A stretch of 64,000 bases of DNA from Aureliella helgolandensis (lineage in GTDB: Bacteria > Planctomycetota > Planctomycetia > Pirellulales > Pirellulaceae): NCBI RefSeq assembly GCF_007752135.1, contig NZ_CP036298.1:2356001-2420000 (forward strand), given 5' to 3'. How positions within the stretch are numbered: position 1 is the first letter of the stretch; each line of letters starts with the position of its first letter. Of the stretch, positions 1,706-36,780 are shown one piece after another. The notes beneath the pieces were generated by a model. It was not told the origin of the DNA. It saw only the letters and a list, made by a program, of their open reading frames with translations, and did no database searches. A program made the position numbers and the translations under genes.

Positions 1706-4700
1706 GGTCGTACACATTCCAATTGGGATCGGTATGTAGAATTCCGTAGTATATTGCATCAAATTGATGTGACCTGAACATCTTGAACGATGCAAGGGGG
1801 ATCTTGCCCAACGCTATCGAGATCTTAGCAGCGATTGTCAAGAACTGATTTTTCCATTCGTCCAAATCATCAGGAAGGCTTCTTAGGAGCAACTTAGCCT
1901 CATCAAACTGTGTTCGTTCAGATTCAAAAAGATTGAAGTGACCTTCAATAGATACTTGCCGTCCTACCGCTCTAGGCAGAGCAGTGACGTGTGTTTGTAA
2001 GAACGTCAATAAATCCGGCAATGAGCGTTCAGTGCTAACAAACTCATTTACTGCGTACGCGGTAATGAGTGATTCCGCTCTGTCAAAGTTCAACATTGCT
2101 GCTCTGTAAGCAGGTATCAATGGGATCGTATGTGGTTGGAGACCAGCGGCATTGAAGGTTCTAGCTTGAATTCCAGTCAACAGAGACGCCGCGCTTGCCA
2201 TGCCCCCCCCGAGGGAATGCCCGCTGATCGAAAGACTACTTTCAACAGGGGAAAGCTGTGCCAAATAGTAGGTTAGATCCATTGCTGCGATATACTGCGG
2301 CTCACCGTTTGTGAGGAGCTGTCGAACATTCGATATGAGATCCTCTGGTGTATCGAGGTCGGTCCCTGCAAAAGAGATTATGTAGCCACCGGATACATAA
2401 TCTCGGTAGAGACCAGCTTTGAATCCAAGTGGAAATATCGGACTGCCAATATCTCTTCTCGCATTAAACAAGTACGTAAGTATTAAGGCTTGGAAGCTCT
2501 GATTCAGATCTGAATCTTCTAGCCATTTTTCAACCTGTTCTTGATCGATGTACTGCAGCGACATGTCCGGGTGTGAACCCTTAGCGTAGACCGCTTCTGC
2601 AGCAGCTGCACTACGCAATTCCGGCATTGAATTAAGCGCTGGGAAGAATGTATTGGCGTTCACTGCCATATATTTAACTTCGTCAGTTGCTTTAACAATT
2701 TCTGATGTGCTCCAAATGGTAGCCTTGATGCGATCATCCGGTTTGTGGAGAGTATCGACATCAATCTTAACGTCATGGCCGGTGGTAATCTGAATTGCCT
2801 CTAACCAGAGGACTACTCTTCCGTTATACGGATTGTAGTTCAGCTCTGAGAGTGTAAAGTCACCAATCAAATCTCCGTCGGGCGTACCCAAAAGACGTCG
2901 GTTGGCATTGTATTTTGGCGCGTCCCAAATATTGATCGTGCCAGACGGCTTGTTCTTCCTCAATTCCTCTAAGCGTATGACAATCTCGGATGGAGGGATA
3001 TGTGTTGGCAACTGTATGACAAGTGGTGTAAATTGATTAGCGTCCTTGTAGAGCATCTTGCCTATGGCAAACCTGTTGGATTCAAGTTCTTCTTCCCAAT
3101 CGTCCAATTCAGGGAAAAATGTGCCATTGTCGTTGTCGCTATCGATATCTAGATCAATTCCCCAAACCATTACGTCAAGCGAAGCTACTTGAATGCTATT
3201 TAAATTGCAGGAGTCGAACGGAGAACTGTTGTCTTGTTGTGTGGGGGCCCAAGTTAGATTGATGGGGGTGCGATGCAACGCGATGCCCTCGACATACAGT
3301 GTCTCTTGACCTGTATAGGGAAGTGTGGGGACGGTGAGCATGTCGCTTGGACCACCCGCATAATACATGTAGGGAAGGACGAGATTGTTCTTCTGCGGCG
3401 AATCCCAAAGTCGAATCGTAGAAAGATCGTAGCTCAAATAAAAGCGACCATCGTCTGCACTCATCTCCTCGGTCAACATCGGGGTGAAGTCCACTGGAAG
3501 CAGATCGTCGTCCAAGAATCCACGTTCAAATTGATCACTCAGACCACTTTCGTCATCGTCGTCGTCATTGCGCAATACGTCCATCTCCAGCATTGGGTAA
3601 GTAACTGCCCCTTGATCATCGTCGGAGACGGTCAGAGTTAGGGGATAGAGTGAATCGCCATAGACTCGCGGCAACCTGAACTCAACGGTCTTAGCGGGAG
3701 TGTTGGAACAGGTATAGAACTGGCTGAACACGTTGCTGTTGGCCGTGGTCCCATCGGCCCAAGTAACACTGGCTGTATGAAGGTCATGAATGCCAGGGTC
3801 TAGAAAGCTTGCTTGGAGCACGGTCCAGGCATCTCCGTGGGAGTCAACCTCGTGACCGATCTGTGGCCGGCCAACAAGTCGAGGTGGTACATTCACCACT
3901 TCCAAAGTCAGTGAGTCCGTTTCGCCCGCGAAGTCCACTTCTACTTCTAGAGGGTCGGTCGGCGTTTCATTGCCCGGCCAAGGTCCGTCGTCCGGTATGT
4001 GGAACGAAACGCCATACACTCCATTGGCATTCAGAATGTTGCGCTGGTGGACCTGCTCGCCAAGATCAAGCTTGCCGTTGAAATTTAGATCGGCAAAGAT
4101 GATGAGCGTTTGAGGGATTGAGGAAGATCCCTCAAGCTCAATAGTAATGGAAATTTCCTGTCCCTCTAGAACGCGCCGGCTAGAGTCGGATGTTCCTCCA
4201 TCGTAGAGTTTCACACTCCGTATTTTGTATGGCTGTTCGTCCGGCTCGAAGCTAGCTGTTCCTGTTGGGCTGGGGCCAGAGGATGGTGGATCGTACGGTG
4301 GAATATATGGAGTCGTTCCCGAAGGTGTGGGCGAGGGCGAGGAAGGAGTTGGAGACGGAGACGGAGATGGAGACGGAGACGGAGACGGAGACGGAGACGG
4401 AGACGGGGACGGGGACGGAGACGGGGACGGAGACGGGGATGGAGACGGGGACGGAGACGGGGACGGAGACGGGGATGGAGACGGGGATGGAGACGGGGAT
4501 GGAGACGGGGATGGAGACGGGGACGGGGACGGGGACGGGGACGGGGACGGAGATGGAGATGGAGATGGAGATGGAGATGGAGATGGAGATGGAGGGTCGA
4601 ACGGAATGGTACCTGATGGGGTTGGGGTTGAAGGTGTACTGCCGGGCGGATCAATGGGTAACGTCCCCGACGGTGTGGGAATGGGGTAACCACTCTCGTT

Positions 4701-8899: not shown

Positions 8900-9380
8900 A
8901 GCAAACTCACTTGCTAAGTCACGGTATCAATACCATACATCAGCAGCCTGAAGGACTGGCAAGGCCATGTCAAGAGTTTGCGGCTACCAATTTTTCATTT
9001 CATCCAAGTTCCCACAGTGGCCAGTGCCCGATCACTGTGCGAGGGGGCAGTGCGACGAGCGGCAGCTTCGCAAAACAGTCCCTCCCACCCACGGTCCGCA
9101 GAGGGCAGGGACTGCCGCATCAGTCAGGCTGTCAGTTTGGGGCAATTGAGTGTGTGCCAGTGAGTGTGGCCAGGTCAGAAATGCCGGGATTCTGCAATGC
9201 ACAGCAATGCCTGCACCGCGCCAGAAACGGACTCGAAAGTCCAGCCTGCAAGCAGAAGCAGAGGATGTTCGACCGAGCGGGGAAATCGCCCGGGAATCCC
9301 TGGCTGGCCAGGGACGTGGTGCCAGGCGAGAGATCGGACTAACTGAAGCGGGACGTCCCGCTGGCCAGACGCTTGCCCTA
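8900..9380. other. Gene-free stretch with small palindromes
   Basis: No reading frame here looks coding: several short overlapping frames occur, all rich in Arg, Ser and Pro. Two tight inverted repeats are present: CCCTGG-CTGG-CCAGGG at 9298-9313, and a perfect 16-base palindrome AGCGGGACGTCCCGCT at 9347-9362. The second lies immediately before the tandem repeat block. Confidence 0.6.
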
Positions 9381-9876
9381 ATCGCAACCCGCCGCGTGAG
9401 CAAGGACAGGTGGTTACGGCTACAGTTTGATTCGGTCGCTACCCCTACAGCAAAACCGAAACCGCTCTTAACTCAACAAGCCGGAGACGGCGTATTGCAA
9501 TCGCAACCCGCCGCGTGAGCAAGGACAGGTGGTTGCCGCTACAGTTTGATTCGGTCGCCACCCCCACAGCAAAACCGAAACCGCTCTCAGCTCAACAAGC
9601 CGGAGCCGGCGTATTGCAATTGCAACCCGCCGCGTAAGCAAGGCCAGCTGGTTGTGGCTACAGTTTGATTCGGTCGCCACCCTCACGGCAAAACCGAAAT
9701 CGCTCTTAACTCAACAAGCCGGAGCCGGCGTATTGCAATCGCAACCCGCCGCGTGAGCAAGGACAGCCGGTTGCGGCTACAGTTTGATTCGGTCGCCACC
9801 CCTACAGCAAAACCGAAATCGCTCTTAACTCAACAAGCCGGTAACGGCGTATTGCAATTGCAACCCGCTGCGTAAC
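9381..9876. repeat. Tandem 119-bp repeats, four copies plus a partial fifth
   Basis: The unit starts with ATCGCAACCCGCCGCGTGAG and recurs at 9381, 9500, 9619 and 9738, with a partial fifth at 9857. The spacing is exactly 119 bases each time. Copies differ by scattered substitutions, often transitions. Each unit also contains TACAGTTTGATTCGGTCGC and a near-constant tail GGCGTATTGCAAT. Reading frames through the block are not conserved coding frames, because 119 is not a multiple of three. This looks like a non-coding tandem repeat in the intergenic region. Confidence 0.95.
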
Positions 9877-30506: not shown

Positions 30507-30650
30507 TTTCCAACTCCCAGCCGGGGGCAGGCTGCGCATTGAGTGAACGGCATTTTCATGGCTATGCCGTGGCGGGTTGAACTCCCGCCGCAGCCTCTGT
30601 TCGTATGTTTCTCAACAGTTTTTACACAACCACAAGCGAAGGAATGCGGC

Positions 30651-30878
30651 ATGTTAGTGCTCAAACGAAAACCGGGCGAATCGGTCGAAATCGAAGGGGG
30701 CGTGCGGTTGATCATCAATCGCATCTCCGGTGGCAATGTTTCGATCGGAATCGAAGCGCCAGCAGAGGTCAAGATCCTGCGTAGCGAGCTGGCTAAGCAT
30801 CCGGAGCTCGTGGCCACACCGAGTGCCCCAGTGCGTGACCATGTCACGCAGTTTGAACCGATGCGACGAGCGGCCTAG
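30651..30878 (+). CDS. csrA: CsrA-family RNA-binding regulator
   Basis: A 75-residue protein whose start is fixed by the invariant MLVLKRKPGESVEI. The body follows the CsrA pattern of five strands: VRLIINRISGGNVSIGIEAPAEVKILRSEL, with conserved Gly, the IGIEAP core and R-x-E. CsrA dimers bind GGA-containing loops in mRNA leaders and repress or stabilise translation. The C-terminal tail (ELVATPSAPVRDHVTQ) is longer than in Escherichia coli. It opens the early block of the prophage, ahead of an exonuclease and a sigma factor, so it may retune host or phage mRNA use after infection. The targets are unknown. Confidence 0.93.
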   Translation: MLVLKRKPGESVEIEGGVRLIINRISGGNVSIGIEAPAEVKILRSELAKHPELVATPSAPVRDHVTQFEPMRRAA

Positions 30879-32214: not shown

Positions 32215-32552
32215 CCACGGCCACGCCCAGCGATGCAGAACAGTGCAGACGGCTGTGGGCTCGCATTGAATCAGAAGGGCACTTTCGCGTGATCGGCATT
32301 CAGCAACACACCGAATACTATCGTTGGGTTGTGCAGATCGCGGTGCCCTGGTGCAGATTTGCCCGCGCCGTGGCAAGCCCAGAACAATACGTGGAGTTCG
32401 TTCAAAAGCTCCAGGATCACCTGGCAACATCTGTCGCCGCCACCAAGATCGTTGTTAATCCAGTGGATACGGTAGCCGTTGCTGCTGCAGCCCCACTCGA
32501 CGCCTCCCCCAGCTGTGACCTGGAAACCCGGCAGCTATCCCTATTTGACTGA
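32196..32552 (+). CDS. Small protein ending in a sliding-clamp-binding-like motif
   Basis: About 118 residues from MHSEQLATATPS, overlapping the previous gene by 19 bases. Residues about 20-80 form a plausible small alpha/beta domain (FRVIGIQQHTEYYRWVVQIAVPWCRFARAV). An Ala/Val-rich linker follows, and the protein ends in QLSLFD. That is close to the consensus QLxLF by which DNA polymerases and other factors bind the bacterial beta clamp. A C-terminal, linker-tethered position is what a clamp ligand would need. A clamp role is inference. Confidence 0.7.
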   Translation: MHSEQLATATPSDAEQCRRLWARIESEGHFRVIGIQQHTEYYRWVVQIAVPWCRFARAVASPEQYVEFVQKLQDHLATSVAATKIVVNPVDTVAVAAAAPLDASPSCDLETRQLSLFD

Positions 32553-32559
32553 ACGCCCG

Positions 32560-33285
32560 ATGGAACAGGAAGAGATGGACCTTTGGCAGCGGTACGCTGT
32601 CGCGCGCCGTGGCCGCTCGCCCAAGAAACTTCGAGAGTCGCTCGAGCTGCGGAATCAATTGGTTGAGCGGTACCAACATCTGGCCGAAGCTGCAGCTCGA
32701 CGTGCCGCCCGCCGGATTCCGTTCGGCGTTGAATACGAAGAGCTATTGTCGCACGCCTACCTGGGCTTGATTGATGCAGTCACGAGGTTCGATCCCGACC
32801 GAGGAATCGGGCCCAATACTTACATGCCTACGCGGATCCATTTCTCGATCACCGATTCGCTGCGCAAGTTGGACACGGTGAGCCGTACGGTCCGTGCGAA
32901 GCTTAAGAAACGCAGGGCATTGTCAGAACAGTTGGGGCATGAGCCCACGGACGACGAGGTGCAAGAACATCTAGGGTTCGTTATCCCGGCTGTACAGATC
33001 AAGTCTCTGGAGGCCGAATCGGATTCCAGCTCGAAGGGCAGGGGCAGGGGGGACACCCTGCGCGACCATGTTGCCGATCGCCATACACCGCAGCAAGTAA
33101 GCGACTGCAGCGAGCTGCTCCGTGGACTCGACAAACGCGAGCGGTTGGTCGTGATGCTGTATTTCATGCATGGCTACCGCATGAAGGAAGTCGCCGAAAC
33201 CATTGGATTGAGCGAATCGCGCGTCAGTCAAATGATGACGGCACTGCGACCGAGATTGAAGGAAAACGCTGCGCGAGCGGCATAG
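32560..33285 (+). CDS. FliA/WhiG-like sigma-70 family factor
   Basis: About 241 residues from MEQEEMDLWQRY (ATG 33-base-in alternatives exist at 32575). Region 2 is clear: RIPFGVEYEELLSHAYLGLIDAVTRFDPDRG, with the DP-R-G core, then NTYMPTRIHFSITDSLRKLDTVSRTVR. Region 3 is RALSEQLGHEPTDDEVQEHLG. Region 4 has LDKRERLVVMLYFMHGYRMKEVAETIGLSESRVSQMMTALRPRL, a helix-turn-helix that reads -35. This is the FliA/SigB/WhiG shape. It lies in the early block and would logically switch on late genes, alone or alongside csrA. No dedicated anti-sigma gene is seen. Confidence 0.92.
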   Translation: MEQEEMDLWQRYAVARRGRSPKKLRESLELRNQLVERYQHLAEAAARRAARRIPFGVEYEELLSHAYLGLIDAVTRFDPDRGIGPNTYMPTRIHFSITDSLRKLDTVSRTVRAKLKKRRALSEQLGHEPTDDEVQEHLGFVIPAVQIKSLEAESDSSSKGRGRGDTLRDHVADRHTPQQVSDCSELLRGLDKRERLVVMLYFMHGYRMKEVAETIGLSESRVSQMMTALRPRLKENAARAA

Positions 33286-33311: not shown

Positions 33312-34325
33312 ATGACACGAAACGAGAGAGGTAGGCAGGAACGCCCGCTAATCGATCTGGCCGAAGGTCGCGATCAAGACCTCCGGAGTGATCTATACCT
33401 AGCATTTAAACGCTGTGCGGGCTGGCGAAAGCCCAATAGCACCAATCTGCATGTGCGGGAGCTGCTGTTCTGGATCATGGCCCTGGACAGGGCAGGGCAA
33501 GGAGTGCAGAAGAGCTACGACGAGATCGCGGATCGCCTGGAGCTGGCCAGCGGGCGCTCGGCACGTCGTGTGATTGACCGAGCAGCTAAAGAGTTTCGAT
33601 TGCTAGTGGTTACCGAATCACGGTATGAGCGAGGAGGACAGAACCCCAATCGATATTCGATCAACTGGCTGCGAGTGCGAGCACTTCGCGATGGTGTTGA
33701 GGATGGAAATCCATGGGCCGAGCAACGGACCGCTCAACAGCATCGCGAAGTTCCCGCCCCCCAGGAACCGGGTGACCGCAGAGGGCACCCGGGTGACCGT
33801 AGCGGACATGCGGGTGACCCCAGCGGTCACCCCTATAAGGAACATTCCAGAACCATTACCAGAAGTATTAATACACACCCACACTCTCCCCTAGCGCCAA
33901 CTTCAACGGACGACTCCACGAGCGTTCGTCGGCCTCCACTCACGGAGGGGGAGGTGGTGAGTGTTTTTTTGAACCTTGGAGTTTTGAGGGCAGCGACACT
34001 CGTTGCCCAAGCTCTGGGGCGGGGCTGCGACACTCGCAGCCTGAAGGCCATTGCCCGTTGGTACGAACGCTCACAGCGTCGGCACCCAACGCGATGGCGA
34101 AAGCCGTCTAGCGTGCTCATGATTCGGCTCACAGCCGCATGGCCCACGGTACCGGCTTGGAAGTGCTGGACACCTGGCGAACCGCCTCGTCGACACTCGG
34201 CGATCGATCGCGACGACTTCCAGCAACGAAAAGTGCGTGCCAGGCAGGACGCGTTGTCCGGCCCGTCAATGTCCGAATTGCTTGCCATTGGCAGACAAAA
34301 ACAACAGGAGAATCCCGACGAATGA
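33312..34325 (+). CDS. Lambda-O-like replication initiator with winged-helix domain
   Basis: 337 residues. Residues about 45-115 resemble a replication-protein winged helix (VRELLFWIMALDRAGQGVQKSYDEIADRLELASGRSARRVIDRAAKE...). A hydrophilic linker (about 130-200) contains three in-frame seven-residue repeats of GD-x-x-GH type, encoded by the iterons described separately. The C-terminal part (about 205-290) has helical segments with Trp, where initiators recruit a helicase loader or helicase. A gene for a wHTH initiator with repeated sites in its middle matches the lambda O arrangement. Direct evidence for initiator function is only this layout. Confidence 0.65.
   Translation: MTRNERGRQERPLIDLAEGRDQDLRSDLYLAFKRCAGWRKPNSTNLHVRELLFWIMALDRAGQGVQKSYDEIADRLELASGRSARRVIDRAAKEFRLLVVTESRYERGGQNPNRYSINWLRVRALRDGVEDGNPWAEQRTAQQHREVPAPQEPGDRRGHPGDRSGHAGDPSGHPYKEHSRTITRSINTHPHSPLAPTSTDDSTSVRRPPLTEGEVVSVFLNLGVLRAATLVAQALGRGCDTRSLKAIARWYERSQRRHPTRWRKPSSVLMIRLTAAWPTVPAWKCWTPGEPPRRHSAIDRDDFQQRKVRARQDALSGPSMSELLAIGRQKQQENPDE
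33769..33885 (+). other. Candidate replication origin: three 21-bp iterons plus A+T-rich tract inside the initiator gene
   Basis: Units start at 33769, 33790 and 33811, each opening CGGGTGACC. Unit 3 is a perfect dyad GGTGACC-CCAGC-GGTCACC; unit 1 is GGTGACC-GCAGA-GGGCACC; unit 2 is decayed on the right half. The period of exactly 21 bases (two helical turns) places sites on one DNA face. Directly downstream, 33834-33880 is about two-thirds A+T, with TATAA and ATTAAT. The layout copies the lambda origin, where iterons in the O gene precede a melting region. Confidence 0.65.
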
Positions 34326-34735
34326 CAGCGGTGCAAGAAACGGCCAATTCCGATGCTGGCAAATGTTTTTGGCGACTGCAGACGGCGGTGATGGTGCGGG
34401 GATCAGCGGAATGGCTGACAACAGCCGAGCTGCTCAAACTGGCGGAATCATGCGAGGCGACGGCCCATGAGCAACGCACGCACGATTGGAATCGGCACTT
34501 TGCAATTCCCATGATTCGCGAGCTGGGGATCCAGCTCGCCAAAGCACGCCGTGATGAAATGCACGGAGCCCACTCGCGCATCGCCACAGTCACGCGAGCG
34601 CTACGCAAGCTGCAACGTAAAGCGCGTGCTAAAAGGGCACCCAGCTTCCGCACGCAAATCGCAGCCCTCGAAAGAGAGCTCGACGAGCTGCTCGACAACT
34701 GCGGACAAGCTACGATGTTTGACGAATTGGACTAG
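34322..34735 (+). CDS. Small helical protein following the initiator
   Basis: 137 residues; the ATG overlaps the initiator stop (ATGA), so translation is coupled. The body is helical and Arg/Lys-rich (KLQRKARAKRAPSFRTQIAALERELDELLDN), with a likely coiled coil near the C terminus. It ends in QATMFDELD, which loosely resembles a clamp-binding QxxMF motif. It could be a helicase loader or a replication accessory factor by position, but I see no ATPase motif, and the family is not recognised. Confidence 0.65.
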   Translation: MTAVQETANSDAGKCFWRLQTAVMVRGSAEWLTTAELLKLAESCEATAHEQRTHDWNRHFAIPMIRELGIQLAKARRDEMHGAHSRIATVTRALRKLQRKARAKRAPSFRTQIAALERELDELLDNCGQATMFDELD

Positions 34736-34861: not shown

Positions 34862-36397
34862 TTACGCAATATCTCGCGGTTCTTTGAGATTCAAAGCACG
34901 AATCAGACCATCGTGCACTTTGTAAGTATCGGATTCAATAAAACCCTGCGATGGGTAAAAACATCGGTATCGCCAAGCTGTTGAATCGCCGATTTTAAAT
35001 CCAATTACAGAGTTGGCGAAGAGAAATCGTAAATCGTCAAGCATTCCAGCAGGCGTAAATTCGATCTCGAGCTTCGCAAGTTGGGCCTCCAAATCTGCGC
35101 GCGAAAACTGCGTGGAAGCATGATTCTGAATTGCGGAAAGCAACTGAATGATCGACGGCCGTTGCACCGACCACTCATCGAGGAGTTCTTGCTTCAACCA
35201 CTCTGAATAGCCGGATTCCGCTTGGTATATCGCCTCGACTGCAATTTGGGAGAAAACGTTTGACGTATCTGCAAATGGGTCATTTACGCTGTCATGCATA
35301 GCATCTATCGTGCGACTTAGGAAGCAGATCATGTCTCGCGGTCTCATCATTGACCGCTTGAGAAGATAGTTAGGGGGTTTTGACCTTTGCCGCATTTCAT
35401 TCTTATCAAATAAAGCTTCGAGATCATCAACAGGTGGCTGGCCATTCAACTCAGCAAAGTACGATAAGCGGCGGATAAGGAGTTTGAATAAGTCGTCTCG
35501 CCCCCACTTGAGTAGTGCGCCACAATCTTCCCGAAGTTTGTTTGAGTCGTTAAGTGGCAGGACGGAAAAAATGTCTTCGCGAAGGAATACGATAGGTCGC
35601 ATGATTTCACTATATTTTGCCGTTAGTGAGTCAGCTGCTGAAACCAATCCTGACAGGACTCGCCTTGAAACTTCCAGTGAGACGTCATCCCACGCCTCAT
35701 CAACACGGTCAAAACAAATGATAGTTCGGTATCTACAAGGAGTAGTTTGTGCGATCGCTTTCTCCATGTAGGAGATAATGTTTCCAATGTTTTGCGCTAA
35801 GCAAGTTCGAATGTCATTGTCGGATTCAACTTCGTCAAATGAAATCTCACCGCCGGAAACTTCCAAAGAATCAAAATTGCCTTCCTCAAGGTCAAGACCT
35901 GCCTTGGGCAACTTGACCTTCGAGAGCCCAAGTAATTTTCGTCCAATCAGTTGGTAAATCGACGGTAACGGATGGTCGAACAGCTTTTCCAAGAGCTTCT
36001 GCGCACTTGCGATTGGCGTTGGAACTGCAACGCCATCCTTTTTGCAGCGAGAGACGTGCGCCTTTATCACTTCAACCAAGATCACGAAACGCCATGATTG
36101 CTTGTAAGCCAGGGAATCAGCAGTTTCCGTATTTCGCAATAGCGAATGTACCTTCCAGTTATAGTCCTCAAACGACAACGACACGAGAATGTCGGTATCT
36201 CGGAGGTACTCGTGTGGATTCTCCTGCAGATACCGAAAGACTGCAGTCTTACCAGCCCCTTTTCGGCCGAGAACCAAGAACGAGGAATTGCTAGCCAAAA
36301 CGGCACGGAGTACTCCGTTGTCATAAAAGTAGTTGACAAGATCGTCGTCTCGCTCTGCCGAAACCTTGCCGACGTTGATCCAGTCAAGAATATTCAT
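34862..36397 (-). CDS. P-loop ATPase (Sll1717-like), probable prophage cargo
   Basis: 511 residues from ATG 36397 (earlier in-frame codons look untranslated). Walker A is GRKGAGKT at 44-51, and IICFDRVDEAW at about 226-236 is a Walker B with a D-x-x-D/E ending. The layout N-terminal P-loop plus long helical C-terminal region resembles the P-loop ATPase family named after Sll1717, and the KAP/STAND type of large signal ATPases. It is on the minus strand amid rightward early genes, flanked by 126 and 134 base gaps. Its A+T content is visibly higher than that of neighbours, suggesting separate acquisition. Cargo genes at such spots often block other phages. Defence is inference. Confidence 0.7.
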   Translation of the reverse strand: MNILDWINVGKVSAERDDDLVNYFYDNGVLRAVLASNSSFLVLGRKGAGKTAVFRYLQENPHEYLRDTDILVSLSFEDYNWKVHSLLRNTETADSLAYKQSWRFVILVEVIKAHVSRCKKDGVAVPTPIASAQKLLEKLFDHPLPSIYQLIGRKLLGLSKVKLPKAGLDLEEGNFDSLEVSGGEISFDEVESDNDIRTCLAQNIGNIISYMEKAIAQTTPCRYRTIICFDRVDEAWDDVSLEVSRRVLSGLVSAADSLTAKYSEIMRPIVFLREDIFSVLPLNDSNKLREDCGALLKWGRDDLFKLLIRRLSYFAELNGQPPVDDLEALFDKNEMRQRSKPPNYLLKRSMMRPRDMICFLSRTIDAMHDSVNDPFADTSNVFSQIAVEAIYQAESGYSEWLKQELLDEWSVQRPSIIQLLSAIQNHASTQFSRADLEAQLAKLEIEFTPAGMLDDLRFLFANSVIGFKIGDSTAWRYRCFYPSQGFIESDTYKVHDGLIRALNLKEPRDIA

Positions 36398-36531
36398 GTA
36401 AGCTCGTTCCGTTTCAATTAACGACCGACAGCACCGGTAGGCGGGAATTAAGTTTGATTTAAGAGAACGCTGGCCACTACCACTCCGGTGCATAGTAGGG
36501 CCGAGTGTTTCATGTGGCTGACAACCGCAGC

Positions 36532-36780
36532 CTACGCCTTGGACCACTGGGAAATCATGTCGTGCAACGGCCCATCGGGCCGAAGATAGACATCCACATA
36601 TTCTACGTTTTCGCTGTTCGCAAAGGCAACGGCGACCACACGAAACATGACCGCCTTACCGGGATCGTGTGGATCATCCAATTCTATATGGTCTCCTACA
36701 CGCGGGATGATTGGTAGTTGAGACTCAACATTGTGGTTGTTTCCATCGCCGTAAAGCGGAATGAGCATGCATTTCTTCAT
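36532..36780 (-). CDS. Small protein of the tail-fibre operon
   Basis: 82 residues (MKKCMLIPLYGDGNNHNVESQLPII...), predicted to be mostly beta. Its start overlaps the stop of the gene before it (ATGA), so it is coupled to the minus-strand tail-fibre operon. RVGDHIELDDPHDPGKAVMFRVVAVAF looks like a small beta-barrel fold. No family recognised. Confidence 0.6.
   Translation of the reverse strand: MKKCMLIPLYGDGNNHNVESQLPIIPRVGDHIELDDPHDPGKAVMFRVVAVAFANSENVEYVDVYLRPDGPLHDMISQWSKA

Follow-up and report, generated by a model that had tools for sequence, protein, structure and literature searches.

Described in-gene origins and the prophage locus

In phage lambda the O gene carries 19-bp imperfect inverted-repeat iterons in its middle, followed by an A+T-rich tract (PMC7466680). 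In the Rep protein of plasmid pSK41, about 120 N-terminal residues form a DNA-binding domain, and the C-terminal domain is separate; its origin boxes are central in rep, where the origin encodes a dispensable linker (PMC5703833).

We analysed a stretch of 64,000 nucleotides from Aureliella helgolandensis (the window, to which positions refer unless another locus is named). The element considered here, a tailed prophage, has genes for terminase, a lambda-type portal, capsid and tail, and is present in IMG/VR as a viral contig. We infer that it has an iteron origin within its initiator gene, with the same mode of action as in lambda O and pSK41 Rep. Judged from sequence, the probability that a temperate tailed phage has its replication origin at positions 33769–33885, inside the gene for its initiator, is roughly 0.87. 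An earlier note on this DNA had proposed such an in-gene origin, and as a mechanism the proposal is supported by the layout, by conservation at the level of DNA and by the weak duplex that adjoins the array. The kind of origin is known; the lineage is new, since neither homology to lambda O nor a helicase loader was found.

As in lambda O, the iterons of the prophage gene lie between the DNA-binding and C-terminal domains of the initiator, and the unwinding tract is next to them, the weakest 50-bp duplex of the prophage gene starting at 33833. Both genes also give a repeat signal when synonymous codons are shuffled. The iteron words differ, as does their spacing, which is a uniform 21 bp in the prophage and 20, 24 and 23 bp in lambda (iterons as annotated in L112). 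Moreover, lambda has the P helicase-loader gene adjacent, whereas no P-like gene was identified next to the prophage initiator. The description 'lambda-like' in the earlier note hence holds for the layout and not for the protein: hhalign detected no homology to lambda O (probability 0.1 per cent), and a search of Pfam returned no match, replication-O included.

With pSK41 Rep the prophage gene shares origin boxes that lie in the gene and encode a linker. pSK41, however, is a plasmid of Firmicutes, whereas this initiator belongs to a temperate phage of Planctomycetota, and no RepA_N domain (PF06970) was found in the window protein at E≤1 or in six family members at E≤0.1. RepA N-terminal domains (4pql and 4pt7), as in pSK41-type Rep, appear together with that of DnaD among the PDB fold matches, which are non-significant (E about 0.1). 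Viral fold neighbours comprise phage wHTH proteins, DnaD-like replication proteins and replisome organisers. The last of these, DnaD-like wHTH initiators of phages, are the best viral matches; the match covers mainly the wHTH, and their domain placement is unlike that of the initiator.

The iteron array, the adjoining tract and the initiator

The initiator gene (33312–34325, plus strand) encodes 337 residues. The AlphaFold2 model of the protein has a confident winged-helix domain (residues 18–126), a low-confidence linker (133–195, the disordered linker as a whole being about 133–205) and a confident helical C-terminal domain (212–275). In a search of the PDB, a profile built from 20 relatives finds winged-helix regulators (2.6e-4 at best), and this search and the model together bear out the earlier placement of the iterons in the linker of a wHTH protein. 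Against PHROG, the window protein gives two weak matches, 'replication initiation' (1e-3) and 'O-like' (PHROG_391; 9e-3), and four of six family members match replication-initiation profiles, at best with 8e-6.

The three 21-bp units first described from the letters alone recur on inspection exactly as reported, with starts at 33769, 33790 and 33811, each beginning with CGGGTGACC and together translating to the seven-residue repeat GDRRGHP, GDRSGHA and GDPSGHP. Scored against GGTGACC-N5-GGTCACC with up to three mismatches allowed, iteron 1 (33769–33790, plus strand) contains a dyad at 33771–33789 with one mismatch, in the right arm. Iteron 2 (33790–33811, plus strand) retains the GGTGACC left arm and has a degenerate right arm with three mismatches, and iteron 3 (33811–33832, plus strand) contains the perfect dyad that had been noted, at 33813–33831. 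A second copy of the prophage, about 85–96% identical across alignable parts, is present at 6.82 Mb in the same genome. In this copy (L002) unit 1 is also a perfect dyad, GGTGACCGCTGCGGTCACC, and the encoded residues change from R to C and from G to A. The 8.44-Mb genome contains only three perfect GGTGACCN5GGTCACC dyads, each of them in this gene in one or the other copy of the prophage.

Directly after the last iteron comes CCTATAAGGAACA, which is common to the window and L008. The putative DNA-unwinding tract (33833–33885, plus strand) is G-poor and 62% A+T, close to the two-thirds claimed earlier. By nearest-neighbour energies, the 50-bp duplex that starts at 33833, the first base past the last unit, is the least stable in the gene, and across the prophage no more than 0.03% of 50-bp windows are equally or less stable. 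Cumulative GC skew peaks near 33–35 kb; gene direction switches at the same place, so that the peak says nothing about the origin.

Selection on the DNA itself was assessed by permuting synonymous codons within each gene, which keeps the protein and the codon counts. The DNA repeat of the window gene is stronger than in such shuffles (p=0.007), as is that of the positive control, lambda O (p=0.007), and none of 13 control genes of the window reached p<0.1. The locus combines the general features of in-gene iteron origins, namely phased dyad repeats, DNA-level selection and a position conserved among relatives.

Several points count against an origin. The PHROG matches of the window protein are weak, the prophage proteins scanned include no recognized helicase, loader or primase, some homologues have neighbours other than phage replication genes, about 15 of 84 family members fail the repeat test, and shared ancestry accounts for part of the covariation between helix and iteron word. 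Dyads arrayed within a gene could also be an operator, through which a wHTH transcription factor would limit its own expression from inside its gene. Transcription regulators are indeed closest to the wHTH by sequence and by fold, and dyad operators are common. Autoregulation of this kind is nevertheless unlikely, given three or more phased copies deep in a gene and followed by its weakest duplex, the matches to replication-initiator profiles, and the same position kept in dozens of diverged relatives.

Repeats and recognition helices among relatives

In a first round of the shuffle test, 21 of 26 relatives (window gene counted) gave p<0.02. The test was extended to 84 non-redundant members, which are not mutually independent, include two fragments from one locus and, among the lowest scorers (HMM score near 30), may include other HTH proteins; 59 reached p≤0.01 and 69 reached p≤0.05, and about 15 failed. 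Repeats are mid-gene in 55 of the 59 members at p≤0.01, and the period is 20–24 bp in 42. The words themselves vary within the same linker: GGCGGAAAN3TTTCCGCC at a period of 24 bp in L005, GGGTCAN3TGACCC at 23 bp in L020, TGATCACN2TGATCA at 21 bp in L019 and L025, and AGTGTCAAACTGTCACT at 21 bp in L008. Of the 21-bp word of the window, for which related prophages had been suggested as a place to look, the perfect dyad recurs in the second prophage copy; distant homologues carry other words.

The array might alternatively reflect a protein-level repeat, in a linker of low complexity where the repetition of the DNA is a by-product. The units do encode a seven-residue repeat, and in-frame repeats occur in many relatives. 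However, the DNA repeat exceeds that of protein-preserving shuffles, amino-acid repeats are unrelated among relatives, and periods such as 22, 23 and 34 bp break the frame. A period not divisible by three is found in 21 of the 59 members at p≤0.01, and an amino-acid repeat cannot be the source of these frame-breaking arrays. We therefore reject a repeat of the protein only, on periods and shuffle results, and regard it as exceedingly improbable. The earlier note had allowed for a protein-level pattern should homologues keep the amino-acid repeat and lose the DNA dyads; across Planctomycetota, mid-gene DNA repeats are kept and the amino-acid repeat is not, an outcome that favours DNA, with dyadic repeats persisting.

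The tract is also recognizable in relatives. With the array end placed by eye in 25 of them, the coding strand is G-poor (lowest 5% of the gene) over the 75 bp past the array in 13, and TATA- or ATTAAT-like words occur past the array in 14. Elevated A+T by itself is a less regular feature.

Iteron words covary with the recognition helix. Words are shared by 58% of pairs whose helices are at least 65% identical, compared with under 1% of pairs below 35%, and a partial Mantel test, with the remainder of the protein controlled for, yields r=0.15 (p=0.001). The partial correlation of the C-terminal domain with the iteron word is equal to that of the helix, so that covariation partly reflects shared ancestry. 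Cleaner, though chosen post hoc, is the pairing of ERxVRRA-type helices with CGGACA iterons (6 of 7 members against 2 of 67, p=1e-6), and the remaining domains of the members that combine this helix with CGGACA are often less than 30% identical.

This covariation also bears on whether the array acts as an RNA element, folding in the mRNA and controlling translation of the initiator or of the downstream gene. Single-stranded folding of the 63-nt array is strong (z=−7, DNA parameters), but any dyad array folds by construction, and neither the covariation with the recognition helix nor the adjoining weak duplex would be explained. We consider an RNA element very unlikely.

For an origin within the initiator gene, a mechanism can be proposed. 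The N-terminal winged helix of the initiator would bind the 19-bp dyads, sites two helical turns apart that all face one side of the DNA. The resulting complex would melt the adjoining A+T-rich, G-poor tract, the helical C-terminal domain would bring in host or phage replication proteins, and replication would follow. Because the linker is disordered and tolerant, DNA-level selection can write an origin there.

Searches of viral contigs and phage records for homologues returned nothing beyond this same prophage, and relatives were hence taken from whole genomes. By eye, from translations, some homologues adjoin integrase, ParB-like or restriction genes rather than phage replication genes. Given these varied neighbours, initiators of this family probably work in mobile elements of several kinds. 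A literature search, its coverage incomplete, gave no description of this planctomycete initiator family. The genome of the window itself contains four further family initiators, at 1.51, 2.26, 3.50 and 6.59 Mb (L172, L171, L170 and L169 in order of position), of which two carry repeats of 12 bp and the other two repeats of 21 bp, and a decayed initiator remnant at 6.856 Mb.

CAC-triloop hairpins, prophage genes and significance

On the coding strand, 3' of the A+T-rich tract, the initiator gene contains a series of hairpins in which a CAC triloop is constant and the self-complementary stems differ. In the window they are GGCAGCGA-CAC-TCGTTGCC (33989–34007, plus strand), which has one G-T pair, GGCTGCGA-CAC-TCGCAGCC (34023–34041, plus strand), with an 8-bp stem, ACGCT-CAC-AGCGT (34067–34079, plus strand) and CGGCT-CAC-AGCCG (34125–34137, plus strand), the last three being perfect with stems of 5 or more. 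Arrays of this kind occur in three related Pirellulaceae elements, at 33989–34137 in the window, at 1453–1790 in L005 (eight hairpins) and at 1495–1680 in L006 (at least two), and are absent from other family members. The hairpins occur in all three reading frames, and the observed number was never reached when the window gene or L005 was put through 1000 shuffles that keep the protein. Paired CGACACTCG words are confined to this gene across 15 genomes of the genus, and a scan of viral contigs for them gave no additional multi-stem hairpin arrays.

A constant loop on variable stems points to recognition of the hairpin as a single strand, of DNA or of RNA. Upon opening of the tract, the hairpins could be strand-specific signals for priming or primosome loading that replace a helicase loader; alternatively, they could act in the mRNA, as sites for some RNA-binding protein. 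A bipartite origin, made up of iterons, an unwinding tract and a coding-strand CAC-hairpin array with putative signals for priming, primosome loading or an RNA-binding protein, is accordingly offered as a tentative and rather doubtful extension of the in-gene origin.

Scans of the prophage proteins recognized no helicase loader, helicase or primase. The downstream gene (34322–34735, plus strand; 137 aa), which overlaps the initiator gene by ATGA and is a candidate partner by position only, encodes no recognizable helicase loader and has no recognized function. Just upstream of the initiator, 32479–33285 encodes a phage-borne sigma-70-type factor with regions 2, 3 and 4. The early region of the prophage also contains a CsrA homologue (30543–30878; Pfam 8e-17), and L059 and L064 likewise have CsrA-like genes close to the initiator, identified by eye from an LSRK..RIG motif. 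On the minus strand, 34862–36547 encodes an NTPase-like protein (PHROG_13260, with weak ORC-CDC6-like and AAA matches) in a lower-GC stretch that is absent from the second prophage, and looks like exchangeable cargo. Elsewhere in the window are two tandem arrays, one of about 10 copies of GGAGAC/24-bp units (4351–4594) and one of 4.2 copies of 119-bp units with 91% match (9380–9873).

To our knowledge, phages of Planctomycetota are almost unstudied. Dozens of relatives in other planctomycetes retain the layout of the prophage gene with different DNA words, which extends the layout of lambda and pSK41 to a diverse initiator lineage of this phylum. The about 80 non-redundant initiator–origin pairs, each with its iteron word inside its own initiator gene, are a natural data set on how the specificity of a winged helix and that of its DNA site change jointly, and are candidate plasmid replicons for bacteria with few genetic tools.
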